NCBI RefSeq assembly: GCF_032921865.1
Contig: NZ_CP136684.1
Location: forward strand, 602,501 to 666,500
DNA: 64,000 nucleotides
Source of the DNA: Thalassospira lucentensis
GTDB taxonomy: Bacteria > Pseudomonadota > Alphaproteobacteria > Rhodospirillales > Thalassospiraceae
Direction of reading: 5' to 3'
Part shown: one piece after another, positions 3,308 to 58,863 of the stretch
Numbering within the stretch: position 1 is the first letter of the stretch
Layout: each line of letters opens with the position of its first letter
Notes under the pieces: model-generated
What the model was told of the DNA's origin: nothing
Database searches by the model: none
The model's input: only the letters and a program-made list of their open reading frames with translations
Translations under genes and position numbers: made by a program

Positions 3308-4185
3308 CCAACCACCAGCGTCGTCCATTCCTCGACCGGGAAACGCTTGACCAGTGACAGGCCAACATCGCGGTAGGCCGACAGGACAAACTGTTCCTGA
3401 TGGGACAGAAGCCCCGACAGAACCACATAACCCCCTTCGGCCAGCGTACCGCGCAGGTCGCGTGCCATATGGCGCAACGGACGGGCAAGGATATTGGCAC
3501 ACACAATGTCGTAATAACCGGCATTGCGGATGCGCACGTCGCTAAAGCCGTTGGAATGGATCGCGGTGACCAGATCGGTGATCTTGTTGATCCGGGCATT
3601 TTCACGGGCAACGCGCACCGATGCGGCATCGATATCAGCCATCATCACCGGGCAGCGCCACGTTTTGGCACATGCCATGCCCAGAATGCCGGACCCGCAG
3701 CCCATATCAAGCGCGTTGTAACGGTACGAATGTTTGGCGATCCAGTCGATTGCCGCAAGGCACCCCTTGGTCGTCTGATGTTCGCCAGATCCGAATGCCA
3801 GACCGGCATCGACCTGCAAACCGGTTTTGGCAACCGGAATACCGTCTTCCCAGTGCGAGCCATGAACATAGAACCGGCCAACCGAAATCGGCTTGAAGCT
3901 GCGCAGATTGTCGCTGACCCAGTCTTTGGGCTCGTAGGTGCCAAATTCGACCACCGGCACATCAACACCGACCGCAGACGCCATCAATGATACGGCGGTT
4001 TCAACCGCAGTCTTGTCAAGATGATCACCCGAAAAGCCTTCGACCTTCCAGGGCGCAGTCGGATCGCCCGGCCGTTCGAAATGCGACAGGGCATCGCAAT
4101 GCTCATACAACGCCTCGGCAAAGGCCGGGGCATATTTGCCATCAACCTCGAAGGTGAAATTATAGCAACGAACGGTTTCGGTCAT
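3304..4185 (-). CDS. prmA: Ribosomal protein L11 methyltransferase
   Basis: A SAM-dependent methyltransferase that modifies ribosomal protein L11. The signature GLAFGSGEHQTTKGCL is followed by the SAM-binding DMGCGSGILGMAC and the motif CANILARPL, with the usual C-terminal EWTTLVV. The 293 residues match the family. The start at 4185 (MTETVRCYNF) is preferred to a start 13 codons upstream because the conserved N-terminal beta strand begins there. It lies 60 bases downstream of the helicase gene on the same strand, so cotranscription is likely, and its end overlaps the end of the convergent permease. Confidence 0.92.
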   Translation of the reverse strand: MTETVRCYNFTFEVDGKYAPAFAEALYEHCDALSHFERPGDPTAPWKVEGFSGDHLDKTAVETAVSLMASAVGVDVPVVEFGTYEPKDWVSDNLRSFKPISVGRFYVHGSHWEDGIPVAKTGLQVDAGLAFGSGEHQTTKGCLAAIDWIAKHSYRYNALDMGCGSGILGMACAKTWRCPVMMADIDAASVRVARENARINKITDLVTAIHSNGFSDVRIRNAGYYDIVCANILARPLRHMARDLRGTLAEGGYVVLSGLLSHQEQFVLSAYRDVGLSLVKRFPVEEWTTLVVG

Positions 4186-49368: not shown

Positions 49369-49439
49369 ACCTGTGACCGGTCAGAATCAAGACCTGTCAG
49401 CATGAAATCTCGATTTTCAGTGTTTTTGGGGAGATGATC

Positions 49440-50159
49440 GTGAAGAAAACAACCATATTCTGCTTCTTGCCGACCCTGGCCTTTGCCGGGATGCTTGGCA
49501 CATCGCAACCGGCCAGCGCCTGCGGGGAAGAGGCCTATACTGGCGAGACCTGTATTACAGCCGCCAGCTATTGCCCGCGCAATACCGTCGAGGCATCCGG
49601 CCAGATCCTTGCTATTAACGATAATCAGGCCCTGTACTCCCTTATCGGATGCACGTTTGGCGGTGATTGCAAGACGAGTTTCGGGATTCCTGACCTGCGC
49701 GGTCGCGCCCCGGTTTCTTATGGGCAAGGTCCGGGACTGTACCCCCGTCAATTCGGACAATATTACGGGACCGAAGCAATCACCCAGACAATCGACCAGA
49801 TGCCAGCCCATAACCACGACGCAACCTTCACCCCGAACGGTGGCGGCGGTGGTGGAACAGATGCCTCGGTGATGGTCTCCCAGGATCCGGCAACAACCGA
49901 TTCCCCTGCCGGCGGCAAGTATCTGGCAAAGGCCACCACAGGCTTGGCACCAATCAAAATCTATAATAACGGCACCAACCTGACCGAACTTGAAGGTGTT
50001 TCGGGCGGCGGCGGTGGCGGCTCGACCGGGGGTACCGTTACGGTTGGTGTTACCGGCGGCACCGAGACCGGCGGCACCCAGCCGATGGAAGTTGCCGGGC
50101 CGCGTCTTGCGATGCGCTATTGCATTGTAACCAATGGCCTCTATCCGCCACGCCCCTGA
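49440..50159 (+). CDS. Exported phage tail-collar (microcystin-dependent-protein-like) protein
   Basis: About 239 residues with a signal peptide (MKKTTIFCFLP to PASA). The mature part matches the tail-collar/Mdp family: ASGQILAINDNQALYSLIG, FGIPDLRGRAPVSYGQGPG, QMPAHNHDATF, a Gly-rich loop and GPRLAMRYCIVTNGLYPPR. Six cysteines in the mature chain, absent from ordinary family members, suggest three disulfides. The GTG at 49440 has GGGGAG at a spacing of 6; ATG 49434 would overlap that site. It is 55 bases before a close paralogue and divergent from the giant gene, so a joint surface role is possible. Confidence 0.82.
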   Translation: MKKTTIFCFLPTLAFAGMLGTSQPASACGEEAYTGETCITAASYCPRNTVEASGQILAINDNQALYSLIGCTFGGDCKTSFGIPDLRGRAPVSYGQGPGLYPRQFGQYYGTEAITQTIDQMPAHNHDATFTPNGGGGGGTDASVMVSQDPATTDSPAGGKYLAKATTGLAPIKIYNNGTNLTELEGVSGGGGGGSTGGTVTVGVTGGTETGGTQPMEVAGPRLAMRYCIVTNGLYPPRP

Positions 50160-50214: not shown

Positions 50215-50937
50215 ATGTCTGCAAAAATTTCACGAAAATCACTGACCGGGATTGCCGGGATTGCCATGGCCACATCGCTCCTTGCCTTTTCCGGTCCGGC
50301 GCGTGCCTGCGGCGCGGATGCCTATCTCGGCCAGGTCTGTTCGATGGCGATCATGAACTACTGCCCGGCAGGCACCGAGTTAGCTGCGGGACAGCTCCTC
50401 GACATATCGGATAATCAGGCCTTGTTCGCGCTGCTTGGCTGCGAATTTGGCGGGGATTGCCGTTCGACATTCCGGCTTCCTGATTTACGCGGGCGGGCTG
50501 CCGTGGGATATGGCTCCGGTCCCGGACTTGATCCCCATCCTTTTGCACAGCCTTACGGGAGAGAATACACCTATCAGTCGGTTGATCAGATGCCGCCCCA
50601 TTCCCATACGGCAACCTTTACCCCGTCGGGTAGTGGGGGCGGTGGTGGCGGAACCGATGTCTCGGTCGCGGTTTCCCAAGATGCGGCAACAACCAATTCC
50701 CCCGCCGGGGGCAAGTATCTGGCCAAGGCGACCACAGGTTTGGCACCAATCAAAATTTACAATGACGGCACCAACCTGACCGAACTTGAAGGCGTTTCGG
50801 GCGGTGGCGGAACATCCGGTGGCGGTACTGTCGAAATCGGGGAAACCGGTGGCGGAGAATCCATGCCGATTGCCGGACCGCGGTTGGCGATGCGCTATTG
50901 CATCGTGACCGAAGGCATTTGGCCGCCAAGATCCTGA
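50215..50937 (+). CDS. Second exported tail-collar protein, tandem paralogue
   Basis: A 240-residue paralogue of the preceding gene with a signal peptide ending at GPARA. ELAAGQLLDISDNQALFALLG, FRLPDLRGRAAVGYGSGPG, QMPPHSHTATF and GPRLAMRYCIVTEGIWPPR align along the whole chain, and the six cysteines are conserved in position. The block AGGKYLAKATTGLAPIKIYN is identical in both, so the pair arose by tandem duplication. GAGG precedes the ATG. Tail-collar domains form trimeric fibre parts in phages; the secreted bacterial forms have no settled function. Confidence 0.83.
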   Translation: MSAKISRKSLTGIAGIAMATSLLAFSGPARACGADAYLGQVCSMAIMNYCPAGTELAAGQLLDISDNQALFALLGCEFGGDCRSTFRLPDLRGRAAVGYGSGPGLDPHPFAQPYGREYTYQSVDQMPPHSHTATFTPSGSGGGGGGTDVSVAVSQDAATTNSPAGGKYLAKATTGLAPIKIYNDGTNLTELEGVSGGGGTSGGGTVEIGETGGGESMPIAGPRLAMRYCIVTEGIWPPRS

Positions 50938-52078: not shown

Positions 52079-52564
52079 CTACGATAATCTGTTCAAGACG
52101 CTACAAAGTTCGCCCAATGCATGTTCACCGGAAATACGGCACCCTAGGTCCGCCTCAAATCCTTCCACAAGCTCACGTGCCTGCCTCAGAAGACTCGCCC
52201 CATCCGGGGTAAGTGCAATCCTATGGGCACGACGGTCCTTCCGATCTTCATCCCGAACAACCAATCCACGTCGCACCAACGGCGCAAGATTGGCCGTAAT
52301 CGTGGCGTGATCCTTTCCAAGCAGCTCTGCCAGATCTTTCTGACGAAGGTCGCCATCCAAGCCGATGGCATCCAAAATCATCAACTGTGAACCGGTTATT
52401 CCGATCGACTGCAAGACGCTGTTAAGACGCCTTGAAATCACACGGTTGACCCGCTGCAAAACAAAGCAGAAACGTCCGGATAACGGTATGTCGCCGTTTG
52501 CCTGTATCGGTTTTGTCCCCGACGGGTTTCTCTTATTCTGCTGCATTATTCGGGCGTTTTTCAT
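52079..52564 (-). CDS. MarR-family transcriptional regulator
   Basis: A winged-helix regulator of about 161 residues. The MarR core is SGRFCFVLQRVNRVISRRLNSVLQ, GSQLMILDAIGLDGDLRQKDLAELLGKDHATITANLAPLVRRGLV and the wing DEDRKDRRAHRIALTPDG. It starts inside the end of the RND permease gene: ATG 52564 or 52546, neither with a good ribosome site, so translation may be coupled to the pump. A role in regulating the pump or a separate stress response is inference. Confidence 0.87.
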   Translation of the reverse strand: MKNARIMQQNKRNPSGTKPIQANGDIPLSGRFCFVLQRVNRVISRRLNSVLQSIGITGSQLMILDAIGLDGDLRQKDLAELLGKDHATITANLAPLVRRGLVVRDEDRKDRRAHRIALTPDGASLLRQARELVEGFEADLGCRISGEHALGELCSVLNRLS

Positions 52565-55500
52565 GGAGGCCAATGTTTGCAGGAGCCCGTTCCATGTCAG
52601 ACGCCGGTTTGATCCGGAACCAAACGGCATAAAGCGCAGGCAGGAAGAGCAGGATCAGAACTGTCCCGGCAGCAGTCCCCCCAATCAGCGTGTAAGCCAT
52701 TGAGCCCCAGAACACCGAATGCGTCAGAGGAACAAAGGCCAGTACAGCCGCAAGAGCCGTCAGGATGACCGGTCGCGCACGCTGGACCGTTGCCTCGACA
52801 ACAGCATGATAGTCATCAAGCCCCGCGGCGCGGTTATCCTTGATCTGCTCTGTCAGGATCAGGGTGTTGCGCATCAAAATCCCGGCCAACCCGATCAATC
52901 CCAAAATGGCGTTGAAACCAAAGGGTTGATTGAAGGCGATCAGTGTCGGAACAACCCCGACAAGCCCCAATGGCGCGGTCAGCATGACCATGGTCATGGT
53001 CGACAGGCTCCGGACCTGCAGGATGATAACGATCAGGGTGGCAGCAATCATTGCCGGGAAGATTTTTGCAAGGGCCGTATTTGCCTTGACCGATTCCTCG
53101 ATGCTTCCGCCCATTTCAATGCGATATCCGACCGGAAGCGACGCAATCAGCGGCTGAAATGCCTCCATAATCTGCTTTGAAACCTCTGGCGGCTGCGTTG
53201 CCTCGTTGATGTCCGAGCGGACCGTGATCACCGGTGTGCGATCACGCCGTTTCAGGACCGGTTCTTCGAGCTGTATTTCGGTTCTTCCGATCTGATCGAG
53301 CGGAATTTGCTGTCCGTCCCGGCTCATCAACGAGAAATCTGCAAGCCGGGCAGGATCAAGACGCGTTTCCCCGGCACTGCGTGCCACGACAGGTACATTG
53401 CGAATGTTTTCGCGAACCTGCGTCACCGGAATCCCCGTCAGCAGGAACTGCATCTGCTGTGCCGCCTCGGCCGGTGACAGGCCAATAAGATTGAGACGGT
53501 CCTGATCCGGCGTGAAGCGCAGGACCGGCGCACGGTTGCCCCAGTCGCGATTTGCCTGCCGGACATCGGGAACCTTGCGCATGATCTCCAGCGCCTTTTC
53601 GGAAATCTCGTAAAGCTTTTCCGGGTCAGGCCCGGTAATACGAAACTCGACGGGGAACGGGGTATAGGGACCGAACACCAATTGCGTAACACGAACATAG
53701 GCTTCCTGTGCAAGTCCGTCGGATACGGCCTTCCGAAGGCGATGTTTCAGTGCCTCCCGCCCTTCTGCGTCCGGTGTCAGAACCACGATCTTGGCAAAGG
53801 ATGGATCAGGAAGTTCGGGCGCCATTGCAAAAAAGAAGCGCGGCGCGCCCTGCCCGATATAACTGGTAACGATCTTTGCCTCGGGCTGTTGTTGCAGCCA
53901 GTTTTCAATCTTCTCGACCGCTGCCGTTGTGGTTTCGATGCTCGTCCCTTCGGGCAGGCGCACCTCAACCAGCACTTCGGGGCGATCCGACGTCGGGAAG
54001 AATTGCTGCTTGATAAGCCCCATTCCGGCCCCGGAGAGAAGGAAGGCAAAGACAACAAGGCCACATGTCAGGAATTTGTGACGCACGGCATAACGGATCA
54101 GCCCGCGAAGACGCCGATAATTCGGTGTGTCATAGATCGCGTGATGGCCACCTTCGACCGGCTTGATCGCCGGCAGCATCTTGACGCCAAGATAGGGCGT
54201 GAAAATCACCGCCACAAGCCAGGAGACAATAAGCGCGAAACCGACAATCCAGAAGATATTGCCAGCATATTCACCCGCACTGGAACTGGCAAAACCAACC
54301 GGCATCAAACCAATGATCGTGACCAGTGTACCGGAAAGCATCGGGGCTGCGGTGTGGCTCCAGGCATAGGCCGCGGCCTTGATGCGATCCATGCCCTCTT
54401 CCATTTTGACCACCATGACCTCGATGGCGATGATGGCATCATCGACAAGCAGGCCAAGCGCCAGAATAAGCGCGCCAAGTGTAATACGATCAAAAAACCT
54501 GCCGGTTTCCAGCATAATCAGAAAGACAACGGCAAGAGTCAGCGGAACAGCAGCCGCAACAACGATCCCGACCCGCCAGCCAAGACTGATCAGGCTCACC
54601 AGCAGAACAACCCCAAGCGCCATGGCGAATTTCATCATGAACTCGCCCACGGCCGCGTTGATATTCACGGCTTGGTCACTGACCTTCTCGAAGCTGATGC
54701 CAAGCGGCAATGTCTTTGCGATGGCAGCAGACCGGTCTTCCAGTGCTTCGCCGAGGTCCAGTCCGTTCCAACCCTGTTGCATCACGACTGACAACAGGAG
54801 TGCCGGTTCACCGTCATGACGGATAATGTAGGTCGGCGGATCTTCATATCCACGACGAACCTCGGCAACATCCGAAAGCTTCAGCGTACGGCCACCCGCA
54901 ACAATCGGCGTATCCGCGATGGTCTGGATGCTGTTATAGGCGCCATCAAACCGAAGGAAGACCTGCGGACCGCGTGTGTCGATTGAACCGGCTGGCGTAA
55001 CGGTGTTCTGGCGTTGCAAAGCACCCGCAATCTCTTGCATCGATATGCCGAGTGTCGCGAGCTTCGCATAGGAGAATTCAACAAAAATCTGTTCGGCCCG
55101 CTCGCCAAGAATATTGATCTTCTTGACGCCGGGAACATGCAAAAGGTCCTGACGGATCGTTTCGGCCTGCCGGACCAGATCGCGCATCGGCATGCCCCGG
55201 GCCTGCAGGGCATACAGAGCAAAACTTACATCCGAATATTCATCATTAACGAAGGGACCCACGACGCCGGACGGCAGATTGCGGGCTTCATCCCCCAGTT
55301 TCTTGCGTGCCTGATAGAACTCTTCGTCAACTTCTGACGGCGGCGTACTGTCTTTCAATGTGACAGTCAGAAAGGCATATCCGGGGCGCGTTATCGTCTC
55401 TACACGATCATACCATGCCAGTTCCTGAACCCGCTTTTCCAACGGTTCAGCGACAAGGTCCTGCATCTCGCGCGCGGTTGCTCCGGGCCATGCGGCTGTC

Positions 55501-55646
55501 ACGGTCAGCGTCTTGATGGTAAAGGAGGGATCTTCCGCCCGGCCCAAATTTACAAAGGCGTAAATCCCGGCGGCGGCCAGCAGAATGATAAAGAATAATG
55601 TGACAGCTCTCTCGCGAACGGCGAGCGCGGAAAGATTGAAACGCAT
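52533..55646 (-). CDS. RND efflux transporter permease
   Basis: A 1037-residue inner-membrane pump of the AcrB/HAE type. Twelve helices in two halves and large periplasmic loops are visible; GLLVDDAIIAIEVMVVKMEEG carries the proton-relay aspartates of helix 4, and the second half has GLIGLAGILMRNTLILTEQIK. It exports drugs or other hydrophobic compounds together with the adaptor encoded upstream, whose stop overlaps this start (TGATG). No outer-membrane partner is encoded next to it. Confidence 0.92.
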   Translation of the reverse strand: MRFNLSALAVRERAVTLFFIILLAAAGIYAFVNLGRAEDPSFTIKTLTVTAAWPGATAREMQDLVAEPLEKRVQELAWYDRVETITRPGYAFLTVTLKDSTPPSEVDEEFYQARKKLGDEARNLPSGVVGPFVNDEYSDVSFALYALQARGMPMRDLVRQAETIRQDLLHVPGVKKINILGERAEQIFVEFSYAKLATLGISMQEIAGALQRQNTVTPAGSIDTRGPQVFLRFDGAYNSIQTIADTPIVAGGRTLKLSDVAEVRRGYEDPPTYIIRHDGEPALLLSVVMQQGWNGLDLGEALEDRSAAIAKTLPLGISFEKVSDQAVNINAAVGEFMMKFAMALGVVLLVSLISLGWRVGIVVAAAVPLTLAVVFLIMLETGRFFDRITLGALILALGLLVDDAIIAIEVMVVKMEEGMDRIKAAAYAWSHTAAPMLSGTLVTIIGLMPVGFASSSAGEYAGNIFWIVGFALIVSWLVAVIFTPYLGVKMLPAIKPVEGGHHAIYDTPNYRRLRGLIRYAVRHKFLTCGLVVFAFLLSGAGMGLIKQQFFPTSDRPEVLVEVRLPEGTSIETTTAAVEKIENWLQQQPEAKIVTSYIGQGAPRFFFAMAPELPDPSFAKIVVLTPDAEGREALKHRLRKAVSDGLAQEAYVRVTQLVFGPYTPFPVEFRITGPDPEKLYEISEKALEIMRKVPDVRQANRDWGNRAPVLRFTPDQDRLNLIGLSPAEAAQQMQFLLTGIPVTQVRENIRNVPVVARSAGETRLDPARLADFSLMSRDGQQIPLDQIGRTEIQLEEPVLKRRDRTPVITVRSDINEATQPPEVSKQIMEAFQPLIASLPVGYRIEMGGSIEESVKANTALAKIFPAMIAATLIVIILQVRSLSTMTMVMLTAPLGLVGVVPTLIAFNQPFGFNAILGLIGLAGILMRNTLILTEQIKDNRAAGLDDYHAVVEATVQRARPVILTALAAVLAFVPLTHSVFWGSMAYTLIGGTAAGTVLILLFLPALYAVWFRIKPASDMERAPANIGLHEKRPNNAAE

Positions 55647-56764
55647 CAGTTCGCCGCCTCTGCCTGAAGGGTCGTTCGGATTGCAGTACCGTCCGCAAGC
55701 AGATGCGCACCAAGGGCAACAATCTCCTGTCCTTCATTGATCCCGGTCACAATTGCGGTTTCTTCCCCAAGCTTCCTGATCTGTACCGGTACAAACTGCA
55801 CAGACGCGGAATCCTGCGTGATCGTCCAGACACCCGTTCGACGGCCATCATCAAGAACCGCGCCAATCGGCACCACGACGCCTGATTGCTGGTCCTGGCT
55901 GGCAATCGAAACCGTCACTGTTGCGCCAAGTGGCGCTGAGGCGGCTTTACCTTCAAGCACATAGCGGGATTCATAGGTACGCGTCAGCGGATCGGCAGCA
56001 TCAGATATCTGCCGCAAACGCGCGTTCCCGTGCGCTTCATTCTGTCCATAAACACTGGCGATAGCCACGGATCCGATTTCAGGACGGATCGTTTCAGGAA
56101 GGGCAATAACCGCCTCCCGCGGCCCGGCATGGGCAAGCTGAATGACGGTTTGCCCCGCAGCGATGACCTGCCCCGGTTCGCCAAGTGTCGCAACCACTGT
56201 TCCATCGGCATCGGCTAACAATGTGGAATAGGTTGCTTCATTTTCGGCCACTTTCGCATCCGCTTGTGCAGCGGCCAATTGAGCTTGTGCCGTATCGCGG
56301 ATCGCCTTGACCTGTTCATAACGTTGCCGACTGGCCGCCAGCCCGTCCTTGACCAGTGCTGCGTATCTTTTCTCGTCTGCCTGCGCCTGCACAAAGGATG
56401 CACGCGCCGCCGCAACCGCATTGCGTTTTGCCGTCAGGGCAAGCTGCAAATCCGTCTCGTCAAGTCTCATCAAAGGCTGCCCTGCTTCGACCTGCTGTCC
56501 GACATCGACAAAACGTTCGACAATTTTGCCCGGCACGCGAAATCCCAGATTGCTTTGAACCCGCGCGGCAACGGTGCCCGTGAAAGAACGCTCAGCCCCA
56601 TGAACACCCGCCGCCCTTGCAACTTTCACCAAAACCGGTGCTTCACGCGGATCTGTCGCCGCCGACGCTTCGCCGGGTGCGGATTGCGAGAGAACAGCAA
56701 ACCCGATCGCCCCGACAGTTGCCAATGCGACCGCACCAAAAAGAAATAGCCGTTTGCGCCTCAT
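55646..56764 (-). CDS. RND efflux periplasmic adaptor
   Basis: A 372-residue membrane fusion protein with an N-terminal anchor or signal (MRRKRLFLFGAVALATVGAIGFAVL). It has the first lipoyl half VQSNLGFRVPGKIVERFVDVGQQVEAGQPL, an alpha-helical hairpin (about 115-185), and beta-barrel segments. The start ATG at 56764 has AAAGG upstream; a GTG at 56779 is less likely. It is the first gene of the pump operon and lies behind TAGAT-N10-ATCTA operators. Confidence 0.9.
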   Translation of the reverse strand: MRRKRLFLFGAVALATVGAIGFAVLSQSAPGEASAATDPREAPVLVKVARAAGVHGAERSFTGTVAARVQSNLGFRVPGKIVERFVDVGQQVEAGQPLMRLDETDLQLALTAKRNAVAAARASFVQAQADEKRYAALVKDGLAASRQRYEQVKAIRDTAQAQLAAAQADAKVAENEATYSTLLADADGTVVATLGEPGQVIAAGQTVIQLAHAGPREAVIALPETIRPEIGSVAIASVYGQNEAHGNARLRQISDAADPLTRTYESRYVLEGKAASAPLGATVTVSIASQDQQSGVVVPIGAVLDDGRRTGVWTITQDSASVQFVPVQIRKLGEETAIVTGINEGQEIVALGAHLLADGTAIRTTLQAEAAN

Positions 56765-56800: not shown

Positions 56801-56849
56801 TAGATTACATACGACATCATTAATTCATTTAGATTTCGATCGCAATCTA
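56801..56849. promoter_or_regulatory. TetR-type operators before the RND operon
   Basis: TAGAT-N10-ATCTA stands at 56830-56849, with a degenerate second copy TAGAT-N10-ATCAT at 56801-56820. Both lie within 90 bases of the adaptor start. The same spacing recurs before tetR and before the SDR gene, pointing to one repressor for all three. Confidence 0.7.
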
Positions 56850-56919
56850 TTTTATGCACAAGGCACGGCTGAAACCAGGGGACTCTCCGATCACTTGCAC
56901 CGGGACGGAAAACCGGATA

Positions 56920-56939
56920 TAGATGTTAGTTGAAATCTA
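56920..56939. promoter_or_regulatory. TetR-type operator before tetR
   Basis: TAGAT (56920-56924) and ATCTA (56935-56939) are separated by 10 bases, exactly as in the RND and SDR control regions. It ends 17 bases before the tetR start, implying autorepression. Confidence 0.72.
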
Positions 56940-56956
56940 ACTACGGATATCAAGCA

Positions 56957-57529
56957 ATGCGTGTCAGCCGTGAACAAGCCACCCGAAACCGTCAGAATGT
57001 GATCGACGTCGCCAGCCGTCTGTTCCGGGAACACGGATTTGACGGGATTGGCCTCAAGGATCTGATGAAAAGTGCCGGATTAACTCAGGGCGCTTTTTAC
57101 AAACAGTTCGCCTCAAAAGAGGACCTTATCGCACAGGCATCGCAACGCGCGCTCGGGGGATCGACGGAACAATGGATCGAAGCCACCGAGAAAAATCCGG
57201 ACAATCCGCTTGAGGCCGCGGTCGCATTCTATCTCAGCAAGGACCATCAGGAAGCCAGAATGGATGGCTGCCCGATCGTCGCACTTGGTGCCGATGCCGC
57301 CCGGCAAAGCCCTGACGTCAAAGCTTCATTTGAAGCTGGCGTGAAGGCTCATCTTGACGTGCTTGGCCAAATGATTTCGACAGCCAGCGAGGCAGAGCGG
57401 GAAGAAAAATCAATCGCCATCCTGTCGCTGATGGTTGGTGCCCTGACATTGGCCCGAGTTGTCAACGACCCGGAGATGGCAAAATCATTTCTGGATGCTG
57501 CGGCCAAAAAAGTCCGGGAAATCGCCTGA
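56957..57529 (+). CDS. TetR/AcrR-family repressor
   Basis: A 190-residue regulator. Residues 1-55 are the TetR DNA-binding domain with VIDVASRLFREHGFDGIGLKDLMKSAGLTQGAFYKQFASKEDLIAQA; the remainder is the helical ligand domain with DGCPIVALGADAAR, similar to the TetR subgroup that often sits next to SDR genes. The ATG at 56957 is the first in frame; the operator precedes it directly. It is divergent from the pump operon and upstream of the SDR gene, so both are predicted targets. The inducer is unknown. Confidence 0.92.
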   Translation: MRVSREQATRNRQNVIDVASRLFREHGFDGIGLKDLMKSAGLTQGAFYKQFASKEDLIAQASQRALGGSTEQWIEATEKNPDNPLEAAVAFYLSKDHQEARMDGCPIVALGADAARQSPDVKASFEAGVKAHLDVLGQMISTASEAEREEKSIAILSLMVGALTLARVVNDPEMAKSFLDAAAKKVREIA

Positions 57530-57949
57530 GATCGCGACCACCAAGCATTTTGCGAAGAACAGAATGTCGGGACGAACATGTCCCGTCAGGAATCTGGCAA
57601 TTTCGAAAATCGCTGCCCAGCATAAAGCTCCTGTTCACGGGGCTTCGTGCGCCAATGCGACGCCCTCCTTCAATACAAAGCCTGACAGCCTTCTTCTCAC
57701 TGTCATGCATCATGAAGTGCGGTAGCACGCGTGATCAGGACCGCACCCGCCGCTTCTATCGCATGACCAGGCACGATGCCACCTACCTCCACACTCACAC
57801 AATATATCGGGTCGCCCCTGCAGCCTGCAGGACAGACGACCTCACGACCGCCAAAGCCTCCGCCTCAAGGAACAGGCCATTTGACGGGAAAAATCCCCCA
57901 GCAGTCAGATGCTCTGCCTGATCACATATTATTTCCTGCGACAGCTAGT
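57530..57949. other. Gap between tetR and the SDR operators
   Basis: About 420 bases with no supported gene. One open frame (57550-57921) has no family resemblance or ribosome site. No clear terminator for tetR is seen. Confidence 0.4.
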
Positions 57950-57998
57950 TAGATTTCGATTGAAATCTAACTTATTTATAGAGTATGAACGAAATCTA
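57950..57998. promoter_or_regulatory. Double TetR-type operator before the SDR gene
   Basis: The first site, TAGAT-N10-ATCTA at 57950-57969, extends to perfect 10-base arms GTTAGATTTC/GAAATCTAAC at 57948-57971. A second, TAGAG-N10-ATCTA, lies at 57979-57998. A weak -10 box, TATAGA, falls at 57977-57982 between them, with a poor -35 inside the first site, so binding would cover the promoter. Confidence 0.78.
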
Positions 57999-58055: not shown

Positions 58056-58863
58056 ATGCCGAATTCTAAAGTTGTGGTCGTAACCGGCGTATCGTCTGGC
58101 ATTGGCCGCGCTACTGCCATCAAGTTTGCCCAAATGGGCTGCCGGGTCTTTGGGACCGTGCGAAATATTGAAAAAGCACAGTCCATAGAAGGCGTTGAAC
58201 TGATCGAGATGGATGTCCGCGACGAAACGGCTGTTCAAAATGGTGTTCAAGCCATCATTGCGCAGGCCAATCGCATTGATGTCGTGATCAACAGTGCGGG
58301 CGTGACCCTGCTCGGCGCGACAGAAGAGACCTCTATTGCCGAAGCACAGTCGCTATTTGATACCAACGTTTTTGGCATCCTGCGCGTCGTAAAAGCTGTC
58401 CTGCCCTACATGCGCGAACAAGGTTCGGGGCGCATTGTTAATATCAGCTCGGTACTGGGTTTTCTTCCTGCGCCGTATATGGGCCTCTATTCAGCATCGA
58501 AGCATGCTGTTGAAGGCCTCTCGGAGACTTCTGGATCATGAAGTCCGCAAGTTTGGAATCCGGGTATCGCTTGTCGAACCGTCCTTCACCAAGACCAATA
58601 TGGACATCAATGCGCCGCAGACAACGTCCACAATCTCCGCCTATGACAAGAACCGCAGCACTGTATTCGAAGCCATTCAAAAGAATGTCCACAAAGCCCC
58701 CGAGCCCGATGAAGTCGCCACCACGATTGTCAATGCAGCCTTGGGTACATGGAAGATGCGACGGACACCAAAAGGCGAGGCCTCGCTTCTCAGAAAACTG
58801 CGACGGTTCATGCCTTTCGGCCCGGTGGATTCCGGCCTCAGGAAAACCTTTGGGCTTTCCTGA
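58056..58863 (+). pseudogene. SDR-family oxidoreductase, frameshifted
   Basis: A classical SDR of about 268 residues when repaired. The first frame runs MPNSKVVVVTGVSSGIGRA to YSASKHAVEGLSET and stops at 58541; the rest (LDHEVRKFGIRVSLVEPSFTKTNM to the end) continues one frame over from 58531. Dropping one T at 58529/58530 joins them without loss. The cofactor loop TGVSSGIG, NSAG and catalytic YSASK are all in the first part, but the substrate-binding part would be lost. AGGAAAG precedes the start. It is predicted to be repressed by the adjacent TetR. Confidence 0.9.

Follow-up and report, generated by a model that had tools for sequence, protein, structure and literature searches.

The window, that is, the whole 64,000-nucleotide stretch of Thalassospira lucentensis DNA that was analysed, carries a tetR gene with a divergent RND pump operon on one side and an oxidoreductase gene on the other, and the inverted repeat TAGAT-N10-ATCTA recurs before all three. 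The features are listed below; the putative operators S1 to S5 are palindromic and are given without strand.

52533–55646, reverse strand: RND pump, closest to MexK among solved structures
55646–56764, reverse strand: RND periplasmic adaptor (membrane fusion protein), TIGR01730, 182 bits against a cut-off of 94.9
56801–56820: putative operator S1, weaker, 2 mismatches, nearest the RND operon start; 18 of 20 positions invariant in four Thalassospira loci
56817–56845, reverse strand: predicted RND operon promoter, TTGCGA-N17-TAATGA, with a poor second hexamer
56830–56849: putative operator S2, exact, in the RND operon promoter; 16 of 20 positions invariant
56895–56923, forward strand: candidate tetR promoter, TTGCAC-N17-TATAGA, from cross-genome upstream comparison
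56920–56939: putative operator S3, exact, in the tetR promoter, overlapping a -10-like hexamer; 20 of 20 positions invariant in four loci
56957–57529, forward strand: tetR, 190 aa, with a TetR_N domain, an LmrA/YxaF-like (TetR_C_13) C-terminal region and one cysteine, Cys105
57570–57818, reverse strand: thiolase remnant, 3' part, 65–70% DNA identity; thiolase whole in G014 and G015
57950–57969: putative operator S4, exact, in the SDR promoter, overlapping a -35-like hexamer; 19 of 20 positions invariant in four loci
57954–57982, forward strand: candidate SDR promoter, TTTCGA-N17-TATAGA, without TTG, placed by analogy
57979–57998: putative operator S5, 1 mismatch, in the SDR promoter, overlapping a -10-like hexamer; 15 of 20 positions invariant
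58056–58863, forward strand: SDR oxidoreductase, NCBIfam PRK06179, frame broken near 58500–58541

The regulator belongs to the TetR family by its TetR_N domain (PF00440, 51.1 bits against a cut-off of 24), and an AlphaFold2 model of the monomer (pLDDT 87.2, pTM 0.81) has the all-helical TetR fold and matches TetR structures, the nearest solved folds being 2fd5, NemR 4yze and operator-bound PA2196 4l62. Its C-terminal region scored 25.1 and 24.5 bits with TetR_C_13 and TetR_C_13_2, below the gathering cut-off of 27 for both, and the protein is regarded as related to the LmrA/YxaF-type subgroup and not filed as a member. Among solved structures the pump scored highest with MexK (854 bits), followed by 6vej (762 bits), which we take to be TriC, and the next best reached 205 bits. 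Adaptor and pump form one operon without an outer-membrane gene, as in MexJK-type systems. The next gene downstream, on the reverse strand at 52079–52630, is of the MarR family and overlaps the end of the pump gene; it is kept in three Thalassospira relatives at 78–93% identity and might place the pump operon under a second regulator.

The earlier note had reported exact dyads with a 10-base spacer at the three promoters and a second, weaker copy at the RND and SDR promoters. All of the positions and the spacing proved right, and both weaker copies are present, starting 29 bp from the exact copy in either pair. Its argument that five such sites near a TetR gene are hard to attribute to chance held for the exact ones: the whole genome (4,733,519 bases) contains five exact dyads, three of them in the window within 1.14 kb, so the dyad is rare outside the locus, and the outcome that the note had named as adverse, a dyad common across the genome outside promoters, did not occur. 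The same argument failed for the weaker copies taken by count alone. With up to two mismatches allowed, 14 matches occur in the window where 8.1 would be expected, and 4 of 100 shuffles also reach 14; at up to one mismatch the genome has 43 dyads against 28 for the reversed control pattern. The weaker copies thus prove nothing by number, and the two-mismatch count in the window, barely above chance, was dropped in favour of conservation, which supports them as likely sites: across four Thalassospira loci S1 has an identical place and the same 29-bp spacing, and S5 lies 29 bp from S4 in all four.

A weight matrix was trained on 163 tetR-upstream sites from 80 loci (see below), a set that includes the Thalassospira counterparts of S2 and S3 and excludes those of S4 and S5. 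The five window sites scored 40.0 (S2, the top-scoring site of the window), 35.1, 34.0, 29.4 and 18.0, and the next best position scored 2.2. The two exact dyads outside the window were considered as further targets and set aside. One (C2:797763) is within an ORF and the other (C2:4130193) 255 bp beyond an ORF end, and their A/T-rich cores (TTAAAAATAA, GTAATAAAAA) have A or T at 10 of 10 and 9 of 10 positions, respectively. The same-species genome G060, moreover, has no exact dyad besides the three of the cluster.

The closest named genomes are those of Thalassospira, and 29 genomes of the genus were scanned for the exact dyad. They contain 21 copies, compared with 15 matches to the reversed control pattern in all. 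Twelve copies belong to the cluster genomes G000, G060, G014 and G015, with three in each, six lie elsewhere and the remaining three stand upstream of a 33–37% identical TetR in G002 and G013. Before this more distant gene, G013 has two exact tandem dyads 26 bp apart (L023 2065–2110) and G002 has tandem dyads at the same distance, one exact and one with a single mismatch (L024 2068–2113); in L023 the surrounding genes are unlike those of the window. All five sites with their 29-bp spacings are kept in G060, G014 and G015. When the four loci are aligned, 88 of 100 operator positions prove invariant, versus 94 of 218 other intergenic positions. A TetR at least 85% identical was found together with the SDR in G000, G014 and G015 among the 60 genomes searched, a set to which G060 does not belong. 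For the 43–46% identical homologues L019–L021 of the same genus, no dyad within two mismatches was present in the stretch examined.

More distant relatives were obtained from a genome-collection scan seeded with two peptide words from the DNA-binding half of TetR. The best 80 of the 212 found, 59–92% identical to the window TetR, span Thalassospira, Mesorhizobium, Azospirillum, Microvirga, Rhizobium, Agrobacterium, Sinorhizobium, Bosea and others, and three of them (L039–L041) are the G060, G014 and G015 loci again. When one mismatch is allowed, 77 of the 80 relatives examined have a dyad in the 250 bp ahead of tetR, usually in tandem. No such dyad was found in that interval in L068, L070 and L078; L070 and L078 have a proximal dyad at two mismatches, and in L068 the proximal site is absent even at that tolerance. 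The 163 upstream sites form 72 neighbour pairs 27–31 bp apart, 54 of which are at 29 bp. Spacer length was varied as a control: tetR-upstream matches numbered 163 with spacer 10, 0–1 with spacers 5–9, 11–13 and 15, and 20–24 each with spacers 4, 14 and 16. The matches with these last three may stem from half-sites that overlap within the tandem array. In the remainder of the 1.245 Mb covered by the 80 loci, spacer 10 gave 44 matches and other spacers gave 2–16. Of the 32 exact dyads counted over 14 whole genomes that carry a related tetR, 23 belong to the tetR locus, compared with 3 matches for the reversed control; in the L081 genome the sole exact dyad lies outside it. The sites are thus co-conserved with TetR, whose recognition-helix stretch is almost invariant in the 80 relatives. 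On the pSymA plasmid of Sinorhizobium meliloti 1021 (L135, 1068259–1080816), two exact dyads lie at -63 and -34 before tetR, the RND pump is 87.5% identical to that of the window, and an adaptor gene and a thioesterase gene are present.

Promoter candidates were derived by comparing upstream regions across genomes; a sigma-70 scan covering this region predicted none where the operators lie. A TTG lies exactly 17 bp ahead of the TATAGA position in 66 of the 79 loci with a proximal operator, and the sites overlap this TTG-N17-TATAGA arrangement at tetR: TATAGA takes in the first bases of the proximal operator, and TTG falls inside the distal operator where there is one. The TTG is present at this distance in 52 of 61 tandem loci, with no other offset exceeding 10 of 61, and in 14 of 18 single-operator loci, which comprise three Thalassospira and most Azospirillum loci. 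Since the single-operator loci retain it, TTG appears to be a true -35 element and not just a part of the dyad. We infer that two dimers would each cover one promoter hexamer, which would account for the 29-bp tandem spacing. In the window, the hexamers of the RND and SDR promoters are poorer than those of tetR.

The composition of the locus varies among the 80 relatives. Counted with fixed score limits, and with some loci ending at contig ends, an adaptor is present in 65, an RND pump in 65, an SDR in 54, FabF in 51, a MATE pump in 14, an MFS pump in 10, a thioesterase in 8 and a thiolase in 2. Sites outside the tetR promoter region, counted at a matrix score of at least 20, occur in 19 of the 80 loci. 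They precede the SDR in 14 loci, namely three of Thalassospira, nine of Azospirillum, where they lie in a region common to the adaptor gene and the SDR, one of Agrobacterium (L107) and one of Rhizobium rhizogenes (L116). For L086, one of the Azospirillum loci, the SDR was located through the gene-content count. Sites also precede a MATE pump in L107 and L116. In L107 (Agrobacterium salinitolerans) and L116, a tandem operator stands 4 kb from tetR, before the MATE gene (3926–3972 and 3928–3974, respectively, relative to the tetR start); a third pump class would therefore belong to the regulon. Other outlying sites lie upstream of tetR beyond 260 bp (L061, L075, L079 and L094) or, in L052, ahead of a 150-aa ORF of no assigned family. 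In 40 of the 54 loci with an SDR no operator directly precedes this gene, and in 38 of these the SDR follows tetR on the same strand, often preceded by FabF, so co-transcription with tetR would be possible.

On the SDR side, the window differs from its relatives. The SDR frame is whole in G060, G014 and G015 and broken in the window, where sequencing error as the cause is not excluded; the two pieces scored 270 and 144 bits against the PRK06179 cut-off of 310, whereas the four intact SDRs scanned (Thalassospira, Azospirillum, Chelativorans and Agrobacterium) scored 375–433 bits, all above it. In G014 and G015, tetR and the SDR are separated by genes for a thiolase, a Bcr/CflA-type MFS pump and a hotdog thioesterase. 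Because this thioesterase–MFS–thiolase operon diverges from the SDR, the SDR-side sites occupy a shared divergent promoter region in these genomes. In G060 (L039), no thiolase, MFS pump or thioesterase was found between tetR and the SDR. The thiolase remnant of the window corresponds to residues 333–387 in two frames (E 1.4e-6), and a translated search of 57530–57950 with all query proteins returned, besides this pair, only matches with E of 0.1 or worse. The regulon is thus eroded in the window strain, with the SDR frame broken and the thiolase–MFS–thioesterase operon gone save for the thiolase remnant, and the SDR branch is probably decaying there. A regulon inferred from a single genome may therefore be partly dead in that genome.

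Judged from sequence comparison, the operator sites are almost certainly real, and with high probability they form a real local regulon of this TetR. The mini-regulon over pump, tetR and SDR that the earlier note had proposed is strongly supported by four Thalassospira loci and by 77 of the 80 relatives, three loci being shared between the two sets. The part of its proposal in which one compound co-induces the pump and an oxidoreductase fared unevenly. Sites do precede both genes; co-induction of a working oxidoreductase is doubtful in the window strain, because the SDR frame is broken there and intact in relatives. Induction of all parts by one compound is a prediction of the model.

We consider it very probable that the dyads are operators of the TetR encoded at 56957–57529, which would repress tetR, the RND operon and the SDR until an inducer releases it. 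A palindromic operator in the regulator's own promoter, as predicted here, is the usual TetR-family arrangement, and the locus belongs to the known class of TetR-controlled efflux loci. Without inducer, TetR dimers, the presumed binders of the dyads, would occupy the -35 and -10 elements of the promoters of tetR, the divergent MexJK-like RND operon and the SDR, and would keep RNA polymerase off. A toxic compound or thiol-reactive agent would then release TetR and open all the promoters together. An operator and promoter layout is thereby proposed for a TetR group of many rhizobia, azospirilla and marine alphaproteobacteria.

As to the signal, most TetR pump repressors act by non-covalent binding of hydrophobic ligands, and we give somewhat better than even chances to the reading that this TetR is an ordinary pump repressor of that kind, like FrrA or MexL, with a plant flavonoid, a quinolone-type signal or a biocide as candidate ligand. 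The kinship of the pump to MexK points this way. MexL–mexJK of Pseudomonas aeruginosa likewise pairs a TetR-type repressor with an adaptor–pump operon; we know of no SDR, FabF or MATE partners of that system. PMC9323910 reports that MexL represses mexJK, that MexJK together with partner channels extrudes triclosan, erythromycin and tetracycline, possibly HHQ as well, and that it plays no part in wild-type resistance. PMC6018408 describes the double-dimer operator of QacR and the similarity of MexL to NalD. In Bradyrhizobium, FrrA–FreCAB and BjG30 are alphaproteobacterial loci with a TetR beside an RND pump; the account in PMC4070704 has them respond to genistein and has further enzyme genes at BjG30. 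These two are likened to the present locus by description, and their pumps are described there as three genes, as opposed to two here. Ordinary ligand binding alone explains neither the conserved cysteine nor the presence of FabF, thiolase and SDR genes as partners.

An alternative, which we hold to be possible though rather unlikely, is a thiol switch: an electrophile or oxidant would attack Cys105, much as happens at Cys106 of NemR and Cys100 of AltR. The agent could be a quinone, an unsaturated carbonyl, an organosulfur compound or a cerulenin-like poison of fatty-acid synthesis; the pumps would expel it, the SDR would reduce it and the spare FabF would replace the poisoned enzyme. The cysteine is highly conserved. 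A GC[PA] motif is present in all 80 relatives (in the Brucella thiophenivorans homologue, L118 8001–8567, which has an internal stop codon, only beyond that stop), cysteine occurs just once in 62 of the 80 proteins, and the Cys105 column is invariant in 28 aligned relatives. The GC motif also occurs in other TetR relatives, such as 2fd5 and 3qbm, and in remote paralogues, however, and may be structural. In the alignment with NemR structure 4yze, Cys105 pairs with the sole cysteine of the aligned stretch, which, given a two-residue numbering offset, would be Cys106; the aligned stretch stops short of the partner lysine of NemR. NemR, the repressor of nemRA-gloA in Escherichia coli, resembles the present protein in its TetR fold (TM-score 0.77–0.80; 51.7 bits with the family profile), in the place of this cysteine and in the autoregulation predicted here; it differs in sequence (21–22% identical in the fold alignment), in its gene partners and presumably in its operator. 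According to PMC5297802, NemR has six cysteines, as against one in most relatives here, and Cys106 is conserved among NemR homologues and critical for the response to reactive chlorine.

Two further cysteine-sensing regulators share features of layout. AltR, the thiosulfinate-responsive TetR repressor of Pantoea ananatis (PMC13178969), is likened here by description: its inverted-repeat operator lies partly over the -10 box, several boxes occur in one cluster, and Cys100 is essential for sensing. Its half-sites CAATCTAC and GTAGATTG contain the same TAGATTG word, but they are reversed and differently spaced (CAATCTAC-N6-GTAGATTG), and its genes are different. DitR of Stenotrophomonas maltophilia (PMC9342713), which responds to diamide, senses by cysteine and has several boxes around the -35, -10 and +1 positions of one promoter; unlike the present TetR, it has the operator CATAC-N5-GTATG, two conserved cysteines and an MFS pump.

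The enzymes at the locus bear on the same question. In all four genomes checked that have a locus FabF, this gene is additional to another FabF of the genome that scores higher, and three genomes without it, the window's own included, have one FabF each (limit E 1e-120). Against the thiol switch, FabF is missing from the Thalassospira and Azospirillum loci. The conserved, mostly lone cysteine and the spare FabF of many loci hint at an electrophile or an inhibitor of fatty-acid synthesis as inducer, and the cysteine together with the FabF, thiolase and SDR partners suggests, without proving it, a thiol-reactive or acyl-type poison as the signal. A more speculative, indeed doubtful, proposal is that the locus is a lineage-wide module by which alphaproteobacteria defend themselves against thiol-reactive inhibitors of fatty-acid synthesis. 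In it, a TetR with one conserved sensing cysteine would occupy -35 and -10 by way of tandem 20-bp operators and would govern up to three classes of pump (RND, MFS and MATE) along with acyl enzymes for sparing or repair, namely a second FabF, thiolase, thioesterase and SDR. Were this so, the cell would expel the poison and also replace its target. Because a MexK-like pump is tied here to fatty-acid-type enzymes and a conserved cysteine, the inducer can be searched for.

Whichever signal applies, another protein might bind the dyads, either the product of the MarR-type gene or another TetR, but we regard this as improbable. The MarR gene does follow the pump in the window and in the three Thalassospira relatives in which it was looked for. 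The dyad, however, tracks tetR: among the 77 loci with a site, 75 have the nearest copy beginning 32–38 bp ahead of the start of the gene. The closest TetR paralogue in the genome (L030, 36% identical) has no exact or one-mismatch dyad in the 3.5 kb examined. That the dyads are products of chance or hairpins is next to impossible, since a terminator-like stem predicted at 57947–57972, covering S4, is set against a fixed spacer and place recurring in 77 of 80 loci and against genome-wide rarity, which exclude this as a general explanation.

Binding by the adjacent TetR thus remains the preferred reading. A search of open-licence papers found none on a TetR–operator–FabF–SDR–RND locus among the matches listed, and a search for the Sinorhizobium homologue by guessed locus tags likewise found no paper among the matches listed; a text search with part of the operator sequence yielded nothing useful there either. 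PMC10269605, PMC5591287 (a reference entry) and PMC5793154 were also consulted. Further along the window, two tandem paralogues on the forward strand (49434–50159 and 50215–50937) carry the phage tail collar domain (Pfam PF07484), and by eye their N-termini resemble signal peptides.
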